45,331 bases of DNA, from NCBI GenBank assembly GCA_018384375.1, contig JAHAYJ010000107.1, positions 1-45,331 of the forward strand, read 5' to 3'. Positions 17,845 to 42,747 of the stretch are shown here, one piece after another; the stretch's first letter is position 1, and each line of letters begins with the position of its first letter. A program made the translations under genes and the position numbers. Below the pieces are notes generated by a model. It saw only the letters and a program-made list of their open reading frames with translations, did not search any database and had not been told where the DNA came from. The DNA is from Lachnospiraceae bacterium. Its GTDB lineage: Bacteria > Bacillota > Clostridia > Lachnospirales > Lachnospiraceae.

Positions 17845-18050
17845 ATATGCTGCTTGAAACGCTCTCATGACAGCATATATCTCCGCTATACCGTATTTGT
17901 TTTGCAGTTACCCGCATATTTGCCGGTATATCTCGCACCGGAGACGGTACGAAAGAGCATCCGCCGAATTTTCGATAACTCTTTTCCTCGTCAACCTTCC
18001 AATAGCTGCCTTAGTCTTCACAGTCGTTGTTTGGAAGGTCATGGCGCTAG
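17845..18050 (-). ncRNA. glmS ribozyme (glucosamine-6-phosphate-responsive)
   Basis: The minus strand from 18050 begins CTAGCGCCATGACC, matching the conserved cleavage site; the cut should fall between A at 18048 and G at 18047. Further along it has GTTGACGAGGA, then GAGTTATCGAAAATTCGGCGGATGCTC (core of the ribozyme, about 17990-17965), and a distal GCGGGTAACTGCAAAAC. A closing hairpin pairs 17878-17871 with 17852-17845. The position in the glmS leader fits. The metabolite acts as cofactor for self-cleavage, destabilising glmS mRNA. The 3' border is approximate. The remaining 90 bases to glmS show only its ribosome binding site. Confidence 0.9.
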
Positions 18051-18140
18051 AAAAGGGAAACAATGACAATTACCTTGCCTATTCTGTTATCAAGGTTCAC
18101 AGGCAATTCCGCAAATATACATAAAATTGCCATTGATGCT

Positions 18141-33917: not shown

Positions 33918-34844
33918 TTAAATTCCTTTTTCAAGCCGCTCCCGATATCCGGGCGTATTCTTGATCTCAAACTTATTATTAAACATCTCGTATTCCGCGT
34001 CAGAAAGCTTATCCTCCAATGCTTCCTCAATATTTGTTTTATATACAATACCGACTGCTACGGAGGGAGCCAGGATCGTATCCTCATAATTGTCACAGCG
34101 CTCCTGAACCTTTGAGGCAAACTCCTCTGCTTCCCCCTCTTCCGCCATGGGAACTAAGACACCAAACACATCTCCGTCTATCCTTCCTATTACAAAATAG
34201 GGTTTTGCTTCCTCCTTCAGAATTTCAGCAACCGTTTTGATCAGTCTGTCACTTTCTTCCTCTCCGAAATGATCATTGACAAATTTCCAGTCGTTGATAT
34301 TAATATTAAGTACAGCTACCGGCACTACTTCAGACCGGTCAATGATCTTTATCTTTTCCTCAAAATAAATCTTATTAAAAACACCTGTCAGAATATCTTC
34401 TCTTTCATTATGAATGACCTTATACTGCCTGTCCTCCAGCTGCTTTTCCAGTTCCTCCAGATAAATACTGCCTTCACGATGCAGATAAGCCTCTTCCCCA
34501 AGCTTGGAAAGCAGTGCAACCGTACCGTCCAGCATTTCATTCATCAAATGTTTGTCTCTTCCCTCATCCAGCTCCTTTATGTACAAATGTCCTACTGTAC
34601 GGTTCTGTACCCGGATTTTCCGTCCCGGATCATTTACCACATCGGGATGAAATCCAAGAAAACTGTCACCGATTACAATCTCCTTTTCTCCGTGCCTGTC
34701 TGTCAGCAGTATATTAATTTCCAGCATTTCCGCCAGATTTTGAAGATACCGTTTCACTGTTTCCGTATCATAAAGGTTTGAAAGGGTATAGTTTTTGATA
34801 TTTTCTTTAATTCTCTTATCATAAGGTATTGCATTGTAGCCCAT
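33918..34844 (-). CDS. Degenerate GGDEF-domain protein
   Basis: A 308-residue cytosolic protein. The N-terminal part (1-110) resembles a small sensory domain with no clear family. A coiled stretch at 120-148 leads into a GGDEF domain (149-300), beginning DILTGVFNKIYFEE and including LNININDWKFVNDHFG. The signature is RIDGDVFG (residues 221-228), so the usual GGDEF reads DGDVF: the first Gly and the catalytic Glu are replaced. Cyclic-di-GMP synthesis is therefore unlikely; it may bind nucleotide as a sensor. It follows the 246-residue hypothetical by 51 bases and precedes a strong terminator. Confidence 0.8.
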   Translation of the reverse strand: MGYNAIPYDKRIKENIKNYTLSNLYDTETVKRYLQNLAEMLEINILLTDRHGEKEIVIGDSFLGFHPDVVNDPGRKIRVQNRTVGHLYIKELDEGRDKHLMNEMLDGTVALLSKLGEEAYLHREGSIYLEELEKQLEDRQYKVIHNEREDILTGVFNKIYFEEKIKIIDRSEVVPVAVLNININDWKFVNDHFGEEESDRLIKTVAEILKEEAKPYFVIGRIDGDVFGVLVPMAEEGEAEEFASKVQERCDNYEDTILAPSVAVGIVYKTNIEEALEDKLSDAEYEMFNNKFEIKNTPGYRERLEKGI

Positions 34845-34895
34845 AAAGCAGCCTCTCCCAAACAGTATATATTTTCTTTAAGTATACCGTTTCCA

Positions 34896-35636
34896 TCAGC
34901 CTTTATCAAGCATTTCTTCACTGTCCTTTATGGGTTTTTCGCTTCTATTTACATGTGGATTTTTCCGGTAAGTCAGATTCTCATTCAGCCTGCAATATTC
35001 ACCTGTCTTACTGTAGGAGTCCATCAGATGACTATCTGACCGGTATGCCGTCGGAATTTCCTCTTTCTGTGCTCTGGTGCCCCGCTGCTTATCCTCCAAT
35101 GTCTGCTGCCTGCCCATTCCCTTTCCGCCTGCAGTCTGACTTCCGGTATCCGTCAAAGCAGCAAATGCATCTTTGCCCTTTTGGAAACGCTTCAAGGAAG
35201 AATGAATTCCAACTCTGATCTTTTCCTTTACCGCTTCCCATTTATTGACAATATGGCTGGAAAAACTTTGTTTCCAGGCGCTGACCACTGCGTTCAGACC
35301 GCTGTGCAAGATACCTGTGCCATCGGAAATGCGATTACTTTTATCCTTCTCCTGCTGCCCTTCCTCTCCCAGAGCCTGCCAGGCATCTTTAAGCAGCCCC
35401 ATGCCGGTCTTGATTCTGCCGGAAGACTTCACATTCCCGGATTCCCTACGATCTACCGTCATCTCCTCCGATACCGTTTCCCTACCTGCCGTCAGACCGG
35501 TATCCTTTCGTGTCCCCATTGCCGCAGCGCTCTGCTGCTTCTTTTTATCCTCATGGAGGCACTCTGTAACGTGATGTGTATGAGATTGCTGATATTCTGT
35601 TCCGGAATAGGCATTAAAATCATTTCTTATCTGCAT
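34896..35636 (-). CDS. Uncharacterised hydrophilic protein
   Basis: A 246-residue protein I do not recognise. It is highly charged, rich in Lys, Glu, Gln, Ser and Thr, without membrane segment, signal peptide or metal motif. A central stretch (about 105-165) contains two amphipathic helices with aromatic residues (LLKDAWQALGEEG; AVVSAWKQSFSSHIVNKWEAVKEKI). The ends look disordered. ATG 35636 has GAGG six bases upstream and lies seven bases beyond the stop of the membrane protein gene; a longer frame to 35723 overlaps that gene and is rejected. Tight spacing suggests it works with the preceding membrane protein. Confidence 0.6.
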   Translation of the reverse strand: MQIRNDFNAYSGTEYQQSHTHHVTECLHEDKKKQQSAAAMGTRKDTGLTAGRETVSEEMTVDRRESGNVKSSGRIKTGMGLLKDAWQALGEEGQQEKDKSNRISDGTGILHSGLNAVVSAWKQSFSSHIVNKWEAVKEKIRVGIHSSLKRFQKGKDAFAALTDTGSQTAGGKGMGRQQTLEDKQRGTRAQKEEIPTAYRSDSHLMDSYSKTGEYCRLNENLTYRKNPHVNRSEKPIKDSEEMLDKG

Positions 35637-35643
35637 AGGAGCC

Positions 35644-36552
35644 TCACTTTTTTCTGTTAAAGAATTTTCGGTGAACTTCCTTTTTCCATTCCTCAGACAC
35701 ATCCTTCTGAAGCTTTTCCTCAAAATCCTGCTCTGAAAGCACCTGGGGAATCAGACTGGGAACAAGTCTGCCCTTTCCTTTATATTTCACATAAAAATAA
35801 CCGAAAACAGAAAACACAACTGCACCAATAAAATTGACGAACAGATCCTTCATGGTATCCAGAAGACCAATATCCAGATAACCGCCAAGTCCAAGTTCCT
35901 GCCCGTTTACCGTCACATCTGTAATATTATGAATTGCTGTGGGATGATTCCCCGAAAGTGGATCAAGCATGACAGAATTAATGCTATGCACAATGGTATC
36001 CTTCTGCATATCCAATCCAAAGAATAAGTCCATCCCACATTCAAAAAACTCCCATACAACACCGATGGTCATAGAAAAGCAAAATGCAACAACAGCCATA
36101 AAAAGCGGAGAAAGCTGAAAAGAAAAACGTTCATTCCGATTCAGCAGATCCACCATGGAAAATCCGATTGCTGCTGCCAGAAAACCATTCAATGTATGCA
36201 GCATCGTATCCCAATAGGGAAATGTAATATAATAAGCACTGATCTCTCCCAATATTTCCGCAGCAAATATGAACAACAGTACGATTGCCTCCAGGGCATC
36301 CGGGATATCAACCTTAAAGTTCATTTCAATAAAACTGGGAATCAGAAAAAGTATCAATGTTAAAATACACAAGAAAACATTCTCATAATTGCCGTTAAAA
36401 AATTGAGCAATCATTACAGCAACCACCAAAAGTCTGAGTATTGCATATAAAGCAAATACCTTTTTGCTCTCGGTAATATGTTTTCCCAACAGTTTTCTCC
36501 TGGATCTATTCAGTTTTTCTTCCTTATTATTATCTTTTTCTTCCTTTTTCAT
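35644..36552 (-). CDS. Multi-pass membrane protein, DUF2238/YjdF-like
   Basis: A 302-residue protein with a charged cytosolic N-terminus (1-30), about seven membrane segments and a charged C-terminal tail. Conserved-looking motifs are WDTMLHTLNGFLAAAIGFSMVDLL and GVVWEFFECGMDLFFG, plus DTMKDLFVNFIGAVVF, which resemble the His/Glu/Asp pattern of YjdF/DUF2238 membrane proteins. Function is unknown. It lies 32 bases after pxpA, so it may be cotranscribed with the D-glutamate genes. I see no clear ribosome binding site before ATG 36552, which leaves the start uncertain. Confidence 0.65.
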   Translation of the reverse strand: MKKEEKDNNKEEKLNRSRRKLLGKHITESKKVFALYAILRLLVVAVMIAQFFNGNYENVFLCILTLILFLIPSFIEMNFKVDIPDALEAIVLLFIFAAEILGEISAYYITFPYWDTMLHTLNGFLAAAIGFSMVDLLNRNERFSFQLSPLFMAVVAFCFSMTIGVVWEFFECGMDLFFGLDMQKDTIVHSINSVMLDPLSGNHPTAIHNITDVTVNGQELGLGGYLDIGLLDTMKDLFVNFIGAVVFSVFGYFYVKYKGKGRLVPSLIPQVLSEQDFEEKLQKDVSEEWKKEVHRKFFNRKK

Positions 36553-36584
36553 GGAATAAATCTATCATAGCAGGGATTCACCTG

Positions 36585-37355
36585 TCAAGTCGTCATCTCC
36601 CTGAGCGGCTTGATCGCAATCCCCTCTGCCAGCAACGCTTTTCTGATCTTTTCCACAAACCTTAGTGCCTTCTCTCCGTCTCCATGAACACATACGCTGT
36701 CTGCCTGTATGGAAATCTCTTTTCCGGTGACGGTGCGCACCTTCCCCTCCTTGATCATACGGATGACGCGGTTTACTGCTTCCTCCTCATCCTCGATCAT
36801 GGCTCCTGACTTACTTCTTGCTACCAGAGAGCCATCCTCCTCATAGGCTCTGTCTGCAAAGACCTCCCTCGCAAAGGGAAGTCCCTTTTCCTTTGCCGCT
36901 TCTTCCACCCGGCTTCCGGCTTGTCCAAGCACGATCAGATTTTCATCTACCGCGCTGATGCCTTCACAGATTGCTTCGGCAAGTGCCTTATCCTTCCCTG
37001 CCATATTGTAAAGAGCACCGTGGGCTTTTACATGCTGCAGACTCCCTCCTGCCGCCTTGACAAAGGCTGAGAGAGCACCGATCTGATATACGATCAATGC
37101 TTTCACTTCCGCAGGCGATAATTTCATTTCTCTTCTTCCAAAGCCCTGCAGATCCGGGAATCCGGGATGTGCCCCCATACCGATTCCGTTTGCCGCTGCA
37201 AGAACTGTGGTATGCTCCATTACCAAAGGATCGGCTGCATGAAATCCACAGGCAATATTTGCAGAAGAAATCAGCGGAAGAATCTGCTCATCCATGCCGA
37301 TCCTGTATGCGCCGAAGCTTTCTCCCAGATCACAATTCAAATCTACCCGATACAT
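36585..37355 (-). CDS. pxpA: 5-oxoprolinase subunit PxpA (LamB/YcsF family)
   Basis: A 256-residue protein with the family signature VDLNCDLGESFGAYRIGMDE at the N-terminus, then SSANIACGFHAADP and AHPGFPDLQGFGRR, plus VKAHGALYN. With PxpB and PxpC it hydrolyses 5-oxoproline to glutamate using ATP. ATG 37355 with AGGAGGAAAAGGAA upstream is the start; a TTG frame to 37397 is rejected. It follows the DUF1445 gene by 45 bases and belongs to the D-glutamate/5-oxoproline operon. Confidence 0.92.
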   Translation of the reverse strand: MYRVDLNCDLGESFGAYRIGMDEQILPLISSANIACGFHAADPLVMEHTTVLAAANGIGMGAHPGFPDLQGFGRREMKLSPAEVKALIVYQIGALSAFVKAAGGSLQHVKAHGALYNMAGKDKALAEAICEGISAVDENLIVLGQAGSRVEEAAKEKGLPFAREVFADRAYEEDGSLVARSKSGAMIEDEEEAVNRVIRMIKEGKVRTVTGKEISIQADSVCVHGDGEKALRFVEKIRKALLAEGIAIKPLREMTT

Positions 37356-37400
37356 TTCCTTTTCCTCCTGATTTCGAACCTCATTTTCTTCAATCAACTC

Positions 37401-38234
37401 TCAGTATTTCAGTTCTGTATTTTTCACATCTGTGATCAGCATATGCCCCGGTGCATGCGTAATACAAAAAGAAGGTTTCACATTCATAACCACAGACTGC
37501 GGTGTTACCCCGCAGCACCAGAACACCGGAACCTCCCCCGGCTTTATGGGAACTGCATCCCCGAAGTCCGGTCTGTTTACATCCCTGATTCCGATCACTG
37601 ACGGATCGCCGATGTGAATCGGCGTTCCGTGTACCTTTGGCATCTGCTCTGTAACCGTCACCGCCTTCACAAGCTGCCCATAAGGAATCGGCCGCATGCT
37701 CACTACCATCTTTCCACTGAAGATTCCCGCCGGTTCACATTCTATATTTGTTATGTACATGGGAACATTGCAGCCCATACTGATATGCCTTACTTCAATT
37801 CCGGCCTCCAGGAGTTCGGACTCAAAGGAAAAACTGCATCCAATCAGAAAACTCACCAGATCCTCCCGCCAGAAGCTTTCCACATTGGTATATTCTCCCG
37901 TCATGACACCATTTTCATATATTCGGTATCTGGGAATTTCTGTGGCAATATCTGCTCCGGGTGCGATTTTTCTCAGGAGGCGGTCACCTGCCTGTGAAAC
38001 CTCCAGGATGGGGCAGGACTTTGGATTTCTCTGCGTAAACAGAAGGAAATCATATGCATATTCCTTGGGAAGCACTACCAGGTTAGCCTGCGCATACCCC
38101 GGGCACATGCCGGATGTGGGACCGGTAATTTTTTCTTCCCGAATTAATTTCCGAACCTCTGTCGGCACCAGAATTCCCTGCTCGGACAATTCCTGTGCTG
38201 TGATACTTTTATTTTCCTTCCTCCCTACAGCCAT
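37401..38234 (-). CDS. DUF1445 protein (D-glutamate cyclase N-terminal-domain homologue)
   Basis: A 277-residue protein of the YcsI/DUF1445 family, annotated as putative hydro-lyase. Visible motifs are GPTSGMCPGYAQANLVVLP, TNIECEPAGIF and CCGVTPQ, with THAPGHMLITD near the end. In animal mitochondria D-glutamate cyclase is a fusion of a DUF1445-like and a DUF4392 domain. Here the two are separate genes in one operon, the DUF4392 part being at 39,895. The start overlaps the pxpC stop by ten bases. Whether this half is catalytic or structural is not known from sequence. Confidence 0.85.
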   Translation of the reverse strand: MAVGRKENKSITAQELSEQGILVPTEVRKLIREEKITGPTSGMCPGYAQANLVVLPKEYAYDFLLFTQRNPKSCPILEVSQAGDRLLRKIAPGADIATEIPRYRIYENGVMTGEYTNVESFWREDLVSFLIGCSFSFESELLEAGIEVRHISMGCNVPMYITNIECEPAGIFSGKMVVSMRPIPYGQLVKAVTVTEQMPKVHGTPIHIGDPSVIGIRDVNRPDFGDAVPIKPGEVPVFWCCGVTPQSVVMNVKPSFCITHAPGHMLITDVKNTELKY

Positions 38235-39178
38235 CTGTTCATTCTCCTCTCCAGCTTCTTAAGTTCGTCTCTTTCTGTTTTCAGTACCTTCTGCGCCTCT
38301 TCCACAGACACCTGCTCAAACAAAAGCTTATTCCCCGGTGCTGCCTGCGCAAGAACCGACAGATCTGCCGTAATCACTGCGCCAAGCTTTGCATAACCCC
38401 CGGTGGTCTGCCTGTCTGCCATCAGAATAATCGGTTTCCCACTGGCAGGAATCTGGATCGCACCGGGAACCGTTGCATCCGATATGATATCCACTGTTTC
38501 CTTGCAGGTGACGGGAATCCCCTCCAGTCGATACCCCATTCTGTCCGATTCCGGCAGAATCGTATACGGGGTAGAGAAAAAAGCTTCTATTCCTTCGTCG
38601 GTAAAGTAGTCCTTTTGAAGTCCCAGAACAACTCTTATTTTCCATTCCTTCCTGCTTTCAGCACTATGAGATATACTTCTTCTCTCTAAATGCCGCAGCT
38701 TTGCAACTGGATTCAAAAATGGAATCTCATCACCAGCTTCCAGCTTTCTGCCTTCCATGCCGCCCAGCTTCACCTTCAGACTGGTAGACTTACTTCCCAT
38801 TATCTCAGGTACCTTAAGTCCTCCCGCAAAGGCAATGTAACCTCTCACTCCTTCCTTGGCAAATCCAAGTTTGAGAATACTACCCTTTTGTGCCGTAAAA
38901 ACCCGGTATCCGGCTACCGGCACCCCGTCCAGAGTTGCTCCCATGTCAGCGCCTGTGAGTACAAAGCAGTCTGTCTCCGTAAATTCTATTTCCGGTCCCA
39001 AAAGAGTTGCCTCCAGCATAGCCTCTGTTTCTTTATTTCCCAAAAGTGCATTTGCAATCCGGAAGGCTCTCCTGTCCATCACACCGGACGGACCAAAACC
39101 GGCTTCCTGTGCACCATATCTTCCCTGATCCTGTATGGTAGTCAGGGCTCCGCCATTTCTAATTTTTATTCCGCCCAT
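38225..39178 (-). CDS. pxpC: 5-oxoprolinase subunit PxpC (biotin-carboxylase-like/KipA family)
   Basis: A 317-residue protein of the KipA/allophanate hydrolase subunit 2 family. It opens IRNGGALTTIQDQGRYGAQ, continues GFGPSGVMDRRAFRIANALLGN, and carries FTGADMGATLDG-like and ILMADRQTTGGYAKLGAVI stretches. Forms the 5-oxoprolinase complex with PxpB and PxpA. GGGGAG precedes ATG 39178, 15 bases after pxpB. Length is normal. Confidence 0.92.
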   Translation of the reverse strand: MGGIKIRNGGALTTIQDQGRYGAQEAGFGPSGVMDRRAFRIANALLGNKETEAMLEATLLGPEIEFTETDCFVLTGADMGATLDGVPVAGYRVFTAQKGSILKLGFAKEGVRGYIAFAGGLKVPEIMGSKSTSLKVKLGGMEGRKLEAGDEIPFLNPVAKLRHLERRSISHSAESRKEWKIRVVLGLQKDYFTDEGIEAFFSTPYTILPESDRMGYRLEGIPVTCKETVDIISDATVPGAIQIPASGKPIILMADRQTTGGYAKLGAVITADLSVLAQAAPGNKLLFEQVSVEEAQKVLKTERDELKKLERRMNRWL

Positions 39179-39193
39179 TTTGACTCCCCTTCT

Positions 39194-39916
39194 TCAGCTT
39201 TCTGCAATCTGGCAATGATAATTGCCGGCTCTGCAGTGCATATCAATTTCCTGGTATTCCTTTTCCTTTACAGGCACAAAACGGATATAGTCTCCTGCCC
39301 GGTAAAGGATCGGGTCCTCCCGTCGCTGATCGTAAAGACGTACCGGCGTCTTTCCGATCAGCTGCCAGCCGCCCGGAGAATCCAGCGGATAAATCCCCGT
39401 CTGACTTCCCCCGATCCCTACACTGCCAGCCTCGATCCTTGTACGCGGAGTGGAAAGCCTCGGTGTTGCCAGTCGCTCATCCATTCCTCCTAAATAGGGA
39501 AAGCCCGGCAGGAAACCGAGCATATAAATCAAATAGTCTCTTCCACTGTGTAATTCAATAATACTCTGACGGCTTAACCCGGTATGCTCCATAACAGTGT
39601 GCATATCAGGGGCATAGGACTCCTCATAGCAGACCGGAATATAGAAAATACGCTTTTTTTGTTCTCCCGTAACCTCCAGGTTTTCGATTATCCCCTGCAA
39701 AAGTTCACACAACTTACCGTAAGAAATACGAAAAGGATCATAAAAAACAGTAACAGAACGAAAAGTGGGAATAAGCTCCAGAACACCCTTTCCTTTTTTC
39801 TCTGCAAGAGCCTTTGCAAATGCCGTTACCTTTTGATTGACCTCGGGACTGATTTTTCGATCAAATTCCACTGTCACGGCACTATCCCCGGCTGTTAAGA
39901 TGCTGATTTCTTCCAC
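39194..39916 (-). CDS. pxpB: 5-oxoprolinase subunit PxpB (KipI family)
   Basis: A 240-residue protein of the KipI/allophanate hydrolase subunit 1 family, with GFLPGFPYLGGMDERLATPRL, then AGSVGIGGSQTGIYPLDSPGGWQLIG near the C-terminus. GTG 39916 is the start: AGGAGG lies seven bases upstream inside the DUF4392 gene, giving a 22-base overlap. Works with PxpC and PxpA in ATP-dependent opening of 5-oxoproline. In Bacillus the KipI homologue inhibits a sporulation kinase; the presence of PxpA and PxpC favours the enzyme role here. Confidence 0.92.
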   Translation of the reverse strand: MEEISILTAGDSAVTVEFDRKISPEVNQKVTAFAKALAEKKGKGVLELIPTFRSVTVFYDPFRISYGKLCELLQGIIENLEVTGEQKKRIFYIPVCYEESYAPDMHTVMEHTGLSRQSIIELHSGRDYLIYMLGFLPGFPYLGGMDERLATPRLSTPRTRIEAGSVGIGGSQTGIYPLDSPGGWQLIGKTPVRLYDQRREDPILYRAGDYIRFVPVKEKEYQEIDMHCRAGNYHCQIAES

Positions 39917-40995
39917 TCCGCCACCTCCTGTTCACATTCCTGAAAAAAGCCCTTTTCCAGTGTAACCTCAAACCATTTTTGAACATTATATTCAATTGCA
40001 TATGCAGTCGTCTCTCTCATCATAGTCACAATATGACAATTCATTGCCACATCAAACCCATCGATTCCGGGAAGAAGGGAGCCTGTCATATCCACCATGC
40101 CGCTCCGTGCACATTCCCTTAAAACTCGTTCTTCCATATCTGCATCATGCATGATACCAATATCCTTTTTCAAATAAGCAATGGCACTGATCAGCGCATA
40201 CACACCCCAATCGGAAACAGTAGCTGTGATCAGGTAATCCGCTGATGTTCTTGCCAGGATTCCACCCTTGCATTCACAATTACATTTTCCCTTACCTGCA
40301 TAAGGAATATACCTGGTAATATGAGAACCAATCGCCCCCATGCCAATTTCATTCCCCAGATCGCCGACTGCAAATGTCGGTATCCCCTTTTCTAAAGCAG
40401 CATCAAACAGCCCATCCATCTTAGCTTCCAATTCTGTCATATTGAGGCCTGTCGCATTGTGATATTCTCCCTTCTCATTTGCTCCGGGAGCCTCTGTGGA
40501 AATCAGAGCTCTTGGTTTCCCATAGGAAAAGAGCTTATGTACCTGCTCCTTTACCTCATCCGAATTCTTTGTAAAAGAGAAAATACCAAAGGCCTCCGGC
40601 AATTCCAGCGCCAGTGAAAGATCTTCATACAGATGCATTCCCACCAGAGGTGCACAATTTTTAACTGCCACCATATTTTCTTCCGGGCAGATTAATATCG
40701 GTTTTACATCAAAGGCTCTGATCAGGGCCCTTGCCAGCAGGATTGCCCCTACAATACCGTCTGTTTCCGGGCATTTATGCGGGCGGAGTATAAATCCTGT
40801 CATGATATAGACAATGTCTCCCGGTACAAGGAGCCGGGTAAGTGCCTTTGCACTGTGCATGGAAACCGGTTCTCCTGCAAATGCCCTTGCACCTTCATAA
40901 AGGATCCGGCAAACACCATAGCCCCTGGGATCCAGGTTCATCAACTGATCCAGATTCGTTCCTACATTCCATTCGGCAAGTTCTTCTCTTGTCAT
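39895..40995 (-). CDS. DUF4392 protein (D-glutamate cyclase catalytic-domain homologue)
   Basis: A 366-residue protein matching the DUF4392 domain found at the C-terminus of animal D-glutamate cyclase, which forms 5-oxo-D-proline from D-glutamate. Motifs include TGFILRPHKCPETDGIVGA, STEAPGANEKGEYHN, VGDLGNEIGMGAIG, a CNCECKGG cysteine group, and WGVYALISA. Catalytic residues are not established for me to check. GGAGGAAGG precedes ATG 40995; it is 15 bases after the D-amino-acid aminotransferase. With the DUF1445 gene it would make up a split D-glutamate cyclase in the same operon as 5-oxoprolinase. Confidence 0.85.
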   Translation of the reverse strand: MTREELAEWNVGTNLDQLMNLDPRGYGVCRILYEGARAFAGEPVSMHSAKALTRLLVPGDIVYIMTGFILRPHKCPETDGIVGAILLARALIRAFDVKPILICPEENMVAVKNCAPLVGMHLYEDLSLALELPEAFGIFSFTKNSDEVKEQVHKLFSYGKPRALISTEAPGANEKGEYHNATGLNMTELEAKMDGLFDAALEKGIPTFAVGDLGNEIGMGAIGSHITRYIPYAGKGKCNCECKGGILARTSADYLITATVSDWGVYALISAIAYLKKDIGIMHDADMEERVLRECARSGMVDMTGSLLPGIDGFDVAMNCHIVTMMRETTAYAIEYNVQKWFEVTLEKGFFQECEQEVAEWKKSAS

Positions 40996-41010
40996 AGCCT
41001 TCCTCCTTCA

Positions 41011-41880
41011 CTAGGGTTCCAGTACAGACAATCTGTATCCTGTTTCCTGATAGAAATCCTTCACTGCCTCCTCCTGCAATTTACGGAGCAATGCAGGATC
41101 CTTACCTCCTACCTTTTTCCCTTCAAGTTCACAGACACCGACGCCCAGTGTACCGGCACTGGATATAATAATTTCATCTGCTGTATATAAATCATCCACT
41201 GTAAACGCTTCCTCCACATACGGAATTCCAGCCTTATCGCAGATTTTCAAGAGATGCTTTCTGGTAATACCGGGAAGGATCAGGTTGTCCGTGGGTGCAG
41301 TGCGGAACACACCGTCTTTCAAAATATGTACATTGCTGTGTGCACACTCCGTCACACGCTCCCCCCTGTGGAAAATTGCTTCCTCACAGCCTGCTTCCTT
41401 TGCGCGCTGATAAGCCATAACACTGGGGATCAAATTCAGGGTCTTAATATTGCAGTGCAAAAATCTGGTATCCTCCACTAAAATGACCTTCATCGGCTTT
41501 GTCAGATTTACAAGCGGAACCTCCCGTACCGTGATCAACAGGTTTGCAGGCTTCCCATCTGTCGGGAATAAGTGATTGCGCATTCCGGTTCCCCTGGTAC
41601 ATTGCCAGTAAACCATGACCTCACCGTCAGAATCCATCAGGTCTACGCATTTCTGAAGCTCTGCCTTCAATTCTTCTCTTGTCATTTTAAAAGGCATCTC
41701 CAGCGCCTGAAAGCTGTTGAAAAAGCGTTCTATGTGCGCATCTGCCTCAAATATCTTGCGGTTCGCCGCATAGGTGGCATCATAAACACCATCTCCAAAG
41801 TACATGGCACGATCATTCATGGGAACCATCATCTTTTCAATTTCGCCAATTTCACCGTTATAATAACCTACATTTTTCAT
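41011..41880 (-). CDS. dat: D-amino-acid aminotransferase (class IV)
   Basis: A 289-residue PLP enzyme of the class IV fold. Catalytic Lys146 lies in HCNIKTLNL. RGTGMRNHLFP supplies the Arg101/His103 pair that binds the substrate carboxylate in Bacillus D-amino-acid transaminase, which sets it apart from branched-chain enzymes. FGDGVYD and TECAHSNVHIL are also typical. It should interconvert D-Ala and D-Glu with their keto acids. GGGAGGAG precedes ATG 41880. First gene of the D-glutamate operon, so it probably supplies or drains the D-Glu used by the cyclase genes. Confidence 0.88.
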   Translation of the reverse strand: MKNVGYYNGEIGEIEKMMVPMNDRAMYFGDGVYDATYAANRKIFEADAHIERFFNSFQALEMPFKMTREELKAELQKCVDLMDSDGEVMVYWQCTRGTGMRNHLFPTDGKPANLLITVREVPLVNLTKPMKVILVEDTRFLHCNIKTLNLIPSVMAYQRAKEAGCEEAIFHRGERVTECAHSNVHILKDGVFRTAPTDNLILPGITRKHLLKICDKAGIPYVEEAFTVDDLYTADEIIISSAGTLGVGVCELEGKKVGGKDPALLRKLQEEAVKDFYQETGYRLSVLEP

Positions 41881-41929
41881 ATCTTCTCCTCCCGCTCTTT
41901 CGCATAATCAGAAATTCCTATAAAACGGC

Positions 41930-41964
41930 AAAGGCGCTATGTCCGAATCGGACATAACGCCTTT
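41930..41964 (-). promoter_or_regulatory. Leader hairpin of the D-glutamate operon
   Basis: On the minus strand AAAGGCG (41964-41958) pairs with CGCCTTT (41936-41930), with an inner TATGTCC/GGACATA stem, followed by a broken T-rich run. It begins only about eight bases after the predicted start. It may attenuate the operon, protect the 5' end, or terminate relQ read-through; no separate relQ terminator is seen. Confidence 0.6.
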
Positions 41965-41978
41965 GTTATTTTGGCTTC

Positions 41979-42007
41979 ATTATAATCTTATGAAATTTAA
42001 AAGGCAA
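41979..42007 (-). promoter_or_regulatory. Promoter of the D-glutamate operon
   Basis: TTGCCT (42007-42002) and TATAAT (41984-41979) are separated by 17 bases on the minus strand, immediately before the leader hairpin. The predicted start is near 41972. Confidence 0.68.
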
Positions 42008-42069: not shown

Positions 42070-42747
42070 CTAGCCTCTGTCAATTCCGTCCCTGATCTCC
42101 TGCATCTGATAATCCAGCTTTTCAATCGAATCCGCACATTTCTTAAGCTGCTCCACGATTATTTCTGAATTTTCCACATTTTTCTTGTATTTCAGCTTGT
42201 GTTCCAGGCTTGCCCAGAAATCCATGGCGATCGTTCTGAACTGTACCTCTACCTTCATATGCTTCTTTTCATTGGATAGAAAAATGGGAATATCCAGAAT
42301 CAGATGAAGGCTGCGGTAACCGTTTGGCTTAGGATTCTTGATATAGTCCTTCTTCTCAAGCAGAATAATATCGTCCTGCTTCTCCAAGAGCGCCGCCAGC
42401 CGATAAATATCATCCGGAAAGGAACAGATCACCCTCACACCGGCAACATCCTTTAAATATTTCTCAATATTCTCCACAGTGACTGCATAGCCCTTGCGCC
42501 TCAATTTATCCGAAATACTTACGGGAGATTTCAGCCTTGACTTGATGGATTCAAAAGGATTTCTGTTGTATTCCTGTGAGAACTCTGCATCCAGCACCTT
42601 AAGCTTAGTCTCCACCTCCATAATGGCACAACGATATTGCATCATCAGTACCAAATACGGCTTTGCTTCTTCTATAATATTTCCTGCATTATCACCCAGT
42701 AGATTGTCCAGTGTTTCTGTCTTTTGTTCCTCTTGTACTTTCTCCAC
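42070..42747 (-). CDS. relQ: Small alarmone synthetase (RelQ/YjbM-like)
   Basis: A 225-residue single-domain (p)ppGpp synthetase. It contains IKSRLKSPVSISDKLRRKG, DVAGVRVICSFPDDIY, NPKPNGYRSLHLI and VEVQFRTIAMDFWASLEHKLKYK, the canonical small alarmone synthetase motifs, with no HD or regulatory domain. It would make alarmones independently of the ribosome. The only possible start is GTG 42747; an in-frame TAA lies at 42756-42754, and the ribosome binding site is weak. A mini-ORF ends just upstream and may couple translation. Confidence 0.9.
   Translation of the reverse strand: MEKVQEEQKTETLDNLLGDNAGNIIEEAKPYLVLMMQYRCAIMEVETKLKVLDAEFSQEYNRNPFESIKSRLKSPVSISDKLRRKGYAVTVENIEKYLKDVAGVRVICSFPDDIYRLAALLEKQDDIILLEKKDYIKNPKPNGYRSLHLILDIPIFLSNEKKHMKVEVQFRTIAMDFWASLEHKLKYKKNVENSEIIVEQLKKCADSIEKLDYQMQEIRDGIDRG

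Follow-up and report, generated by a model that had tools for sequence, protein, structure and literature searches.

Why would a bacterium keep homologues of the two parts of animal D-glutamate cyclase in one run of genes with a 5-oxoprolinase and an aminotransferase? We investigated this question in a Lachnospiraceae bacterium, on contig JAHAYJ010000107.1 of GenBank assembly GCA_018384375.1 (45,331 bases, the entire contig and hereafter the window, belonging to a draft genome of 3.1 Mb), where the genes dat, DUF4392, pxpB, pxpC, DUF1445, and pxpA follow one another on the minus strand from 41880 to 36585. Comparison of this operon with its relatives suggests that it may well be a D-branch version of the 5-oxoproline operon. 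Papers are cited below by PubMed Central (PMC) accession, for the passages of each that bear on these genes. The animal mitochondrial enzyme GLUCM, a DUF1445-DUF4392 fusion, converts D-glutamate to 5-oxo-D-proline, which humans excrete (PMC5339696), and the fusion in higher animals was suspected in 2016 to join sequentially linked functions (PMC5132392). PxpABC is an ATP-dependent 5-oxoprolinase that yields glutamate (cited in PMC10448178).

Six genes and their linkage

An earlier reading of the window, made from its letters and a list of open reading frames (ORFs; hereafter the sequence-only reading), had placed all six genes in this order, and ORF positions and Pfam searches agree with it. 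The first gene, dat (41011..41880, minus strand, as are all genes of the operon), is class IV D-amino-acid aminotransferase-like (PF01063, Aminotran_4, E = 1.6e-41). After a gap of 15 nt follows DUF4392, or GLUCM-like_C (39895..40995), a homologue of the C-terminal half of animal D-glutamate cyclase (PF14336, 2.6e-90), which overlaps by 22 nt with pxpB for 5-oxoprolinase subunit B (39194..39916; PF02682, CT_C_D, 1.5e-77). A further 15 nt separate pxpB from pxpC for subunit C (38225..39178; PF02626, CT_A_B, 9.1e-95), and pxpC overlaps by 10 nt with DUF1445, or D-Glu_cyclase (37401..38234), a homologue of the N-terminal half of the animal enzyme (PF07286, 4.7e-70). The last gene, pxpA for subunit A (36585..37355; PF03746, LamB_YcsF, 6.4e-106), begins 45 nt after DUF1445 if it starts at ATG 37355, which is likely its start; the listed ORF (37397-36585) begins at TTG 37397, and AGGAGG precedes the ATG. 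The short gaps and overlaps read off earlier thus measure 15-45 nt, and 10 and 22 nt, respectively. All three Pxp subunits are present together at the locus: PxpB (TIGR00370), PxpA (NF003814), and the CT domain of PxpC (TIGR00724) passed their NCBIfam cut-offs, and PxpC fell below the equivalog cut-off NF045499 (264.3 vs. 500 bits).

We searched 299 genomes of the window's family and 398 genomes of its phylum with the DUF4392 profile (PF14336), which gave 24 and 42 over the cut-off, respectively (26 and 43 at E 0.001). Neighbourhoods were taken for the matches over the cut-off, and six relatives were added from named contigs. All six genes stand on one strand at 17 nonduplicate loci, the window included, and in five orders: dat-DUF4392-pxpB-pxpC-DUF1445-pxpA at eight loci, dat-pxpB-pxpC-DUF1445-pxpA-DUF4392 at six, and pxpB-pxpC-DUF1445-pxpA-DUF4392-dat, DUF4392-dat-pxpB-pxpC-DUF1445-pxpA, and dat-pxpA-pxpB-pxpC-DUF1445-DUF4392 at one each. 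Near relatives of the window (L003-L006) account for 4 of the 17, the others coming from the window's family and from phylum families f39 and f105. Since the same six genes are kept in several orders and in at least three families, their linkage is more than chance, and this comparative evidence points to functional partners that very probably work together. The linkage of dat, DUF1445, DUF4392, and pxpABC on which the sequence-only reading depended is thus conserved in related genomes.

In the relatives, dat denotes a putative dat, called by a match to a profile built from the window's dat. L067, which shares an identical DUF4392 with L007, and L083, from the same genome as L177, were left out of the counts, and ORFs under the length limits were left out of trees and alignments. 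Because the contigs of L069, L077, L089, L092, L094, L096, and L130 are short, neighbours may be missed there.

At nine loci DUF1445 and DUF4392 are adjacent without pxp genes in the fetched stretch, an arrangement that echoes the fused animal protein. pxpB lies elsewhere in eight of these nine genomes (in G322, locus L088, on the same contig 12 kb off, outside the fetched stretch); in G627 (L130), DUF4392 is broken into two pieces and pxpB gave no match. A bacterial DUF1445-DUF4392 fusion was found nowhere among the search matches in the family and phylum genomes; of the DUF4392 frames over the cut-off, the longest (589 amino acids, G487) belongs to a genome whose DUF1445 match is elsewhere.

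Two classes of Pxp operon

DUF1445 was found in 28 of the 299 family genomes and a pxpB-type domain over the cut-off in 60. DUF4392 and DUF1445 occur together in 20/299 family genomes (2.25 expected) and in 31/398 phylum genomes (6.75 expected), in tests that ignore descent, though the family genomes were drawn at nearly one for each genus. Every one of the 28 DUF1445 genomes of the family also has pxpB, eight of the 28 are without a DUF4392 match, and four of the 24 family genomes with DUF4392 are without a DUF1445 match (in one of the four, G045, a contig end holds a fragment of DUF1445). Because DUF1445 accompanies PxpABC where DUF4392 is not found, it is more than one half of an obligatory cyclase. 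The "split D-glutamate cyclase" proposed from the sequence holds in that homologues of both domains are encoded by two ORFs; it is not supported as a single enzyme needing both halves.

DUF4392 lies at the Pxp operon in 14 of the 24 family genomes (about 7 kb away in G249). Among family Pxp operons, same-strand dat is present in 12/14 with DUF4392 vs. 0/14 without (0/13 minus L166, whose contig stops 174 nt past pxpB and which was left out of the operon comparison); a YcsG-like NRAMP gene shows the opposite distribution there, 0/14 with DUF4392 vs. 10/14 without. Over the 37 usable loci, same-strand dat is present in 20/24 DUF4392 operons vs. 0/13 others and a YcsG-type NRAMP transporter in 0/24 vs. 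10/13, operons without DUF4392 being drawn from the window's family only and those with it from the family, phylum, and named-contig searches. The YcsG-like assignment was made by Pfam on the L169 member; in general, Pfam was run on a single member of each neighbour family, and BLAST clusters carried the name to the others. Across the operons, the presence of dat tracks that of DUF4392 rather than that of DUF1445. A gene for a sodium/alanine symporter adjoins dat (L072, L082, L177) or pxpA (L103) in 4/24 DUF4392 operons vs. 0/13 others, a difference short of significance (Fisher P = 0.28).

The B. subtilis control genome has DUF1445, presumably ycsI, and no DUF4392 match. The pxpABC operon of that species holds ycsG, ycsI, and kipR (PMC10448178). 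The operon of the window shares with it pxpA, pxpB, and pxpC in one operon and a DUF1445 gene in the genome, but differs in that the NRAMP transporter YcsG found there is missing from all 24 DUF4392 operons, and in that dat is not named there in the relevant passages of PMC10448178.

Other genes were observed near individual loci. A further sodium/alanine symporter lies near a solitary DUF4392 (L078), and an AsnC/Lrp-type gene (tested on L103) lies near the operons at L074, L093, and L103. At L068 (5248-8619) dat is replaced: two D-2-hydroxyacid dehydrogenase-like genes, the first tested and the second assigned by the same BLAST cluster, stand around a class I/II aminotransferase, followed by DUF4392-pxpB-pxpC-DUF1445-pxpA. 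Biotin carboxylase and biotin carrier protein genes lie between pxpC and DUF1445 in the non-DUF4392 operons L161 (9327-11125, by Pfam) and L168 (3916-5715, by shared BLAST clusters). At L007, L065, and L070, the genes that lead into dat on the same strand encode an amino-acid ABC transporter of the LIV type and a cytidylate-kinase-like protein (tested on L065 and L070 members).

The enzymes and their possible reactions

The closest Protein Data Bank (PDB) matches of dat are the D-amino-acid aminotransferases 9pxs, 3lqs, and 1daa. Y33, R101, H103, and K146 lie within stretches aligned to 9pxs and 3lqs and are invariant in 21/21 rows, the window included, which bears out the Arg101, His103, and Lys146 named in the sequence-only reading. 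We take K146 to be the catalytic lysine and Y33, R101, and H103 to form the carboxylate trap. The protein scores below the D-amino-acid transaminase equivalog cut-off TIGR01121 (230.4 vs. 277.45 bits).

Pfam now names DUF4392 "D-glutamate cyclase-like, C-terminal"; no NCBIfam match was found for the window's protein. Its acidic metal site (E77, D79, E168, D212, E216, and D312) corresponds to E59, D61, E115, D157, E161, and D246 of TON_0340, the Thermococcus DUF4392 protein (PDB 4dwz, 4fc5, 5gkx, 5gl2-5gl4), with which it shares the fold and all six acidic ligands. These ligands are invariant in 72/72 aligned rows (78 matches, six duplicate or short ones left out). The window's protein is longer than TON_0340 and carries a CxCxC insert (C238/C240/C242), the loop length varying at residues 226-252 (40240-40320, minus strand); the insert, present in 33-35 of the 72 rows, the window among them, has a residue pattern that looks like a further metal site. 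DUF4392 matched in none of the 14 control genomes, B. subtilis included.

DUF1445 is currently named "D-glutamate cyclase" by Pfam and "putative hydro-lyase" by NCBIfam (NF003969, passed). Its structure matches are 2pif (5.5e-94) and 3db9 (7e-94), and a profile search of 16 DUF1445 rows against PDB sequences, in which two-cysteine cofactor-independent racemases were considered, returned no clear relative besides these two. A structure model from an alignment of the window and L003-L007 reached a pLDDT of 34, too poor for a fold search. C74, C133, R149, R181, and H202 are invariant in 49 rows, and C241 nearly so.

From its active-site residues, Dat would link D-glutamate to 2-oxoglutarate and pyruvate to D-alanine, and PxpABC would use ATP to convert 5-oxoproline to glutamate, as is established for its family. 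DUF4392, rather than DUF1445, would carry the D-glutamate step, an assignment suggested by the company of dat, by the metal site, and by the occurrence of DUF1445 without DUF4392. The distribution of DUF1445 suggests that it would be a standing partner of PxpABC that acts on the lactam, beyond a half-cyclase role. The operon would then draw both enantiomers of glutamate and of the lactam into the 2-oxoglutarate/glutamate pool. The link to cell-wall D-amino acids drawn in the sequence-only reading is conjectural, as murI and alr are also present in the genome.

The mammalian enzyme is reversible, and the equilibrium of lactam opening is unfavourable. In the sequence-only reading, D-glutamate was cyclised and then recycled by PxpABC; this has no net effect, because lactam opening leaves the alpha carbon unchanged, so the loop from D-glutamate to lactam and back is futile and costs ATP. 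Flux must therefore exit via Dat or via inversion of the alpha carbon. By the first exit, DUF4392 would exchange D-lactam and D-glutamate, D-glutamate would leave via Dat, and PxpABC would take the L-lactam, both enantiomers being used. By the second, the lactam would be inverted, the candidate being DUF1445, the one enzyme here to which no step has been assigned. That DUF1445 inverts the alpha carbon of 5-oxoproline via the conserved cysteines C74, C133, and C241, with DUF4392 alone as a Mn-dependent D-glutamate cyclase, is a long shot. If true, it would provide a route from D-glutamate to L-glutamate that bypasses glutamate racemase and a use of 5-oxo-D-proline, and the animal protein would unite two enzymes that act one after the other, much as PMC5132392 broadly supposed.

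Several observations weigh against the D-branch reading. In 10/24 family genomes DUF4392 is not found at the pxp genes. No dat is nearby in 3/24 DUF4392 operons (L068, L111, and L113), dat and the alanine symporter of L082 are on the opposite strand, a dat-like gene lies 1.5 kb from the second DUF1445 copy of G072 (L162), on the other strand and with no DUF4392 there, and L177 was counted among the 24 though its DUF4392 is about 7 kb away. Only two to three independent lineages separate the operon classes, none of them opposite in direction, so that a sign test of DUF4392 with dat cannot reach 0.05. A clean phylogenetic split of the Pxp subunits by operon class was rejected, with 4-5 label changes per tree. 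Both murI and alr are present in the same genome, which makes the route partly redundant. Finally, TON_0340 was reported as a probable, weak Mn phosphatase (PMC5132392).

If that report extended to DUF4392 here, the protein would be a phosphatase of a small phosphorylated compound, such as a PxpABC intermediate, and no cyclase. The activity of TON_0340 was, however, very low, with no natural substrate known (PMC5132392), 39 of the 60 family genomes that carry a pxpB-type match lack one for DUF4392, and the animal fusion is a D-glutamate cyclase (PMC5339696), which makes a phosphatase improbable. Somewhat less so, though still unlikely, is that a single D-glutamate cyclase is built of DUF1445 and DUF4392 as its two subunits, with the operon disposing of cell-wall D-glutamate via the lactam. 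This would account for the fusion of the halves in animals (PMC5339696, PMC5132392), for their adjacency at the nine loci without pxp genes in the fetched stretch, and for a co-occurrence far above chance, but not for the eight family genomes in which DUF1445 and pxpB occur without a match for DUF4392, nor for DUF4392 without DUF1445; moreover, recycling by PxpABC regenerates D-glutamate unless the alpha carbon is inverted.

The locus could also be a plain 5-oxoproline operon in which dat and DUF4392 are passengers by neighbourhood with no shared pathway. The ten family genomes with unlinked DUF4392 would fit this, as would the near relative L003, which is syntenic with the window well beyond the six genes; yet 7 of those 10 retain a pxp-DUF1445 operon elsewhere, and the recurrence of the six genes in five orders and at least three families leaves mere passengers very doubtful.

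Split cyclase homologues, the animal fusion, and a pxp operon with ycsG and ycsI are already in print. Both domains of GLUCM have homologues here over the cut-off (PF07286 and PF14336), but the animal enzyme is one fused protein, whereas here two ORFs, separated by pxpB and pxpC, lie in an operon with a 5-oxoprolinase and an aminotransferase. A 2025 paper tabulates zero full-length and six split homologues of GLUCM_HUMAN in gut microbes (PMC12547972, Table 1); the split arrangement is common to both, but the passages concerned give a homology table and no dat/pxp operon. Growth of Corynebacterium glutamicum on L-5-oxoproline requires pxpTABC (PMC13274462), and a word search of that paper gave no mention of D-glutamate or 5-oxo-D. 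No description of an operon with dat, DUF4392, and pxp was found in searches of open-licence full-text literature, which is weak evidence of absence. Bacteria in which the two domains are separate proteins, some holding both and some only one, next to genes of known function, allow each to be assayed alone, and so bear on which domain of the animal cyclase is catalytic, a point that the papers covered do not settle.

Surroundings of the operon

The system stops at 36585, and the lower end of 33918 given to it earlier was too wide. Below it, 36552-33918 hold a membrane protein, an unnamed ORF, and a GGDEF protein; among the loci compared, these genes recur in the near relative L003 only and not in distant operons. 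The GGDEF-domain protein (33918-34844, minus strand) has the signature DGDVF in place of GGDEF and, judging by it, is probably not an active diguanylate cyclase.

Upstream of the operon lies a promoter-like TTGCCT-17-TATAAT (41979..42007, minus strand, 10/12 consensus bases), which is weak alone because the scan found 12 such sites vs. 8.8 in shuffles. Between it and dat is a leader hairpin of 17 pairs (41929..41965, minus strand); the segment 41900-41980 folds at -31.2 kcal/mol (z = -6.08). A hairpin stands at the equivalent place in L003-L006 (z = -9.7, -5.9, -4.4, and -6.5, respectively), its upper stem differing in L004 and L005, and L004 has a different upstream gene. The hairpin may be a leader terminator or attenuator. 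As a hallmark of the system it was rejected, having been folded in the window and L003-L006 only; a crude stem finder run on 22 loci missed the hairpins of L004 and L005 and returned other, unlike stems in L070, L073, L074, L082, L085, L090, L103, and L177.

Deer colon and rectum samples are the source of some near relatives of the window, which makes the gut a likely setting, among others. A small RelA/SpoT-type synthetase-like gene (42070-42747, minus strand) lies immediately upstream of the operon, and one lies upstream in L003 too. Farther off, a glmS ribozyme (17877-18059, minus strand, 89.1 bits) lies upstream of the minus-strand ORF 17754-15937.

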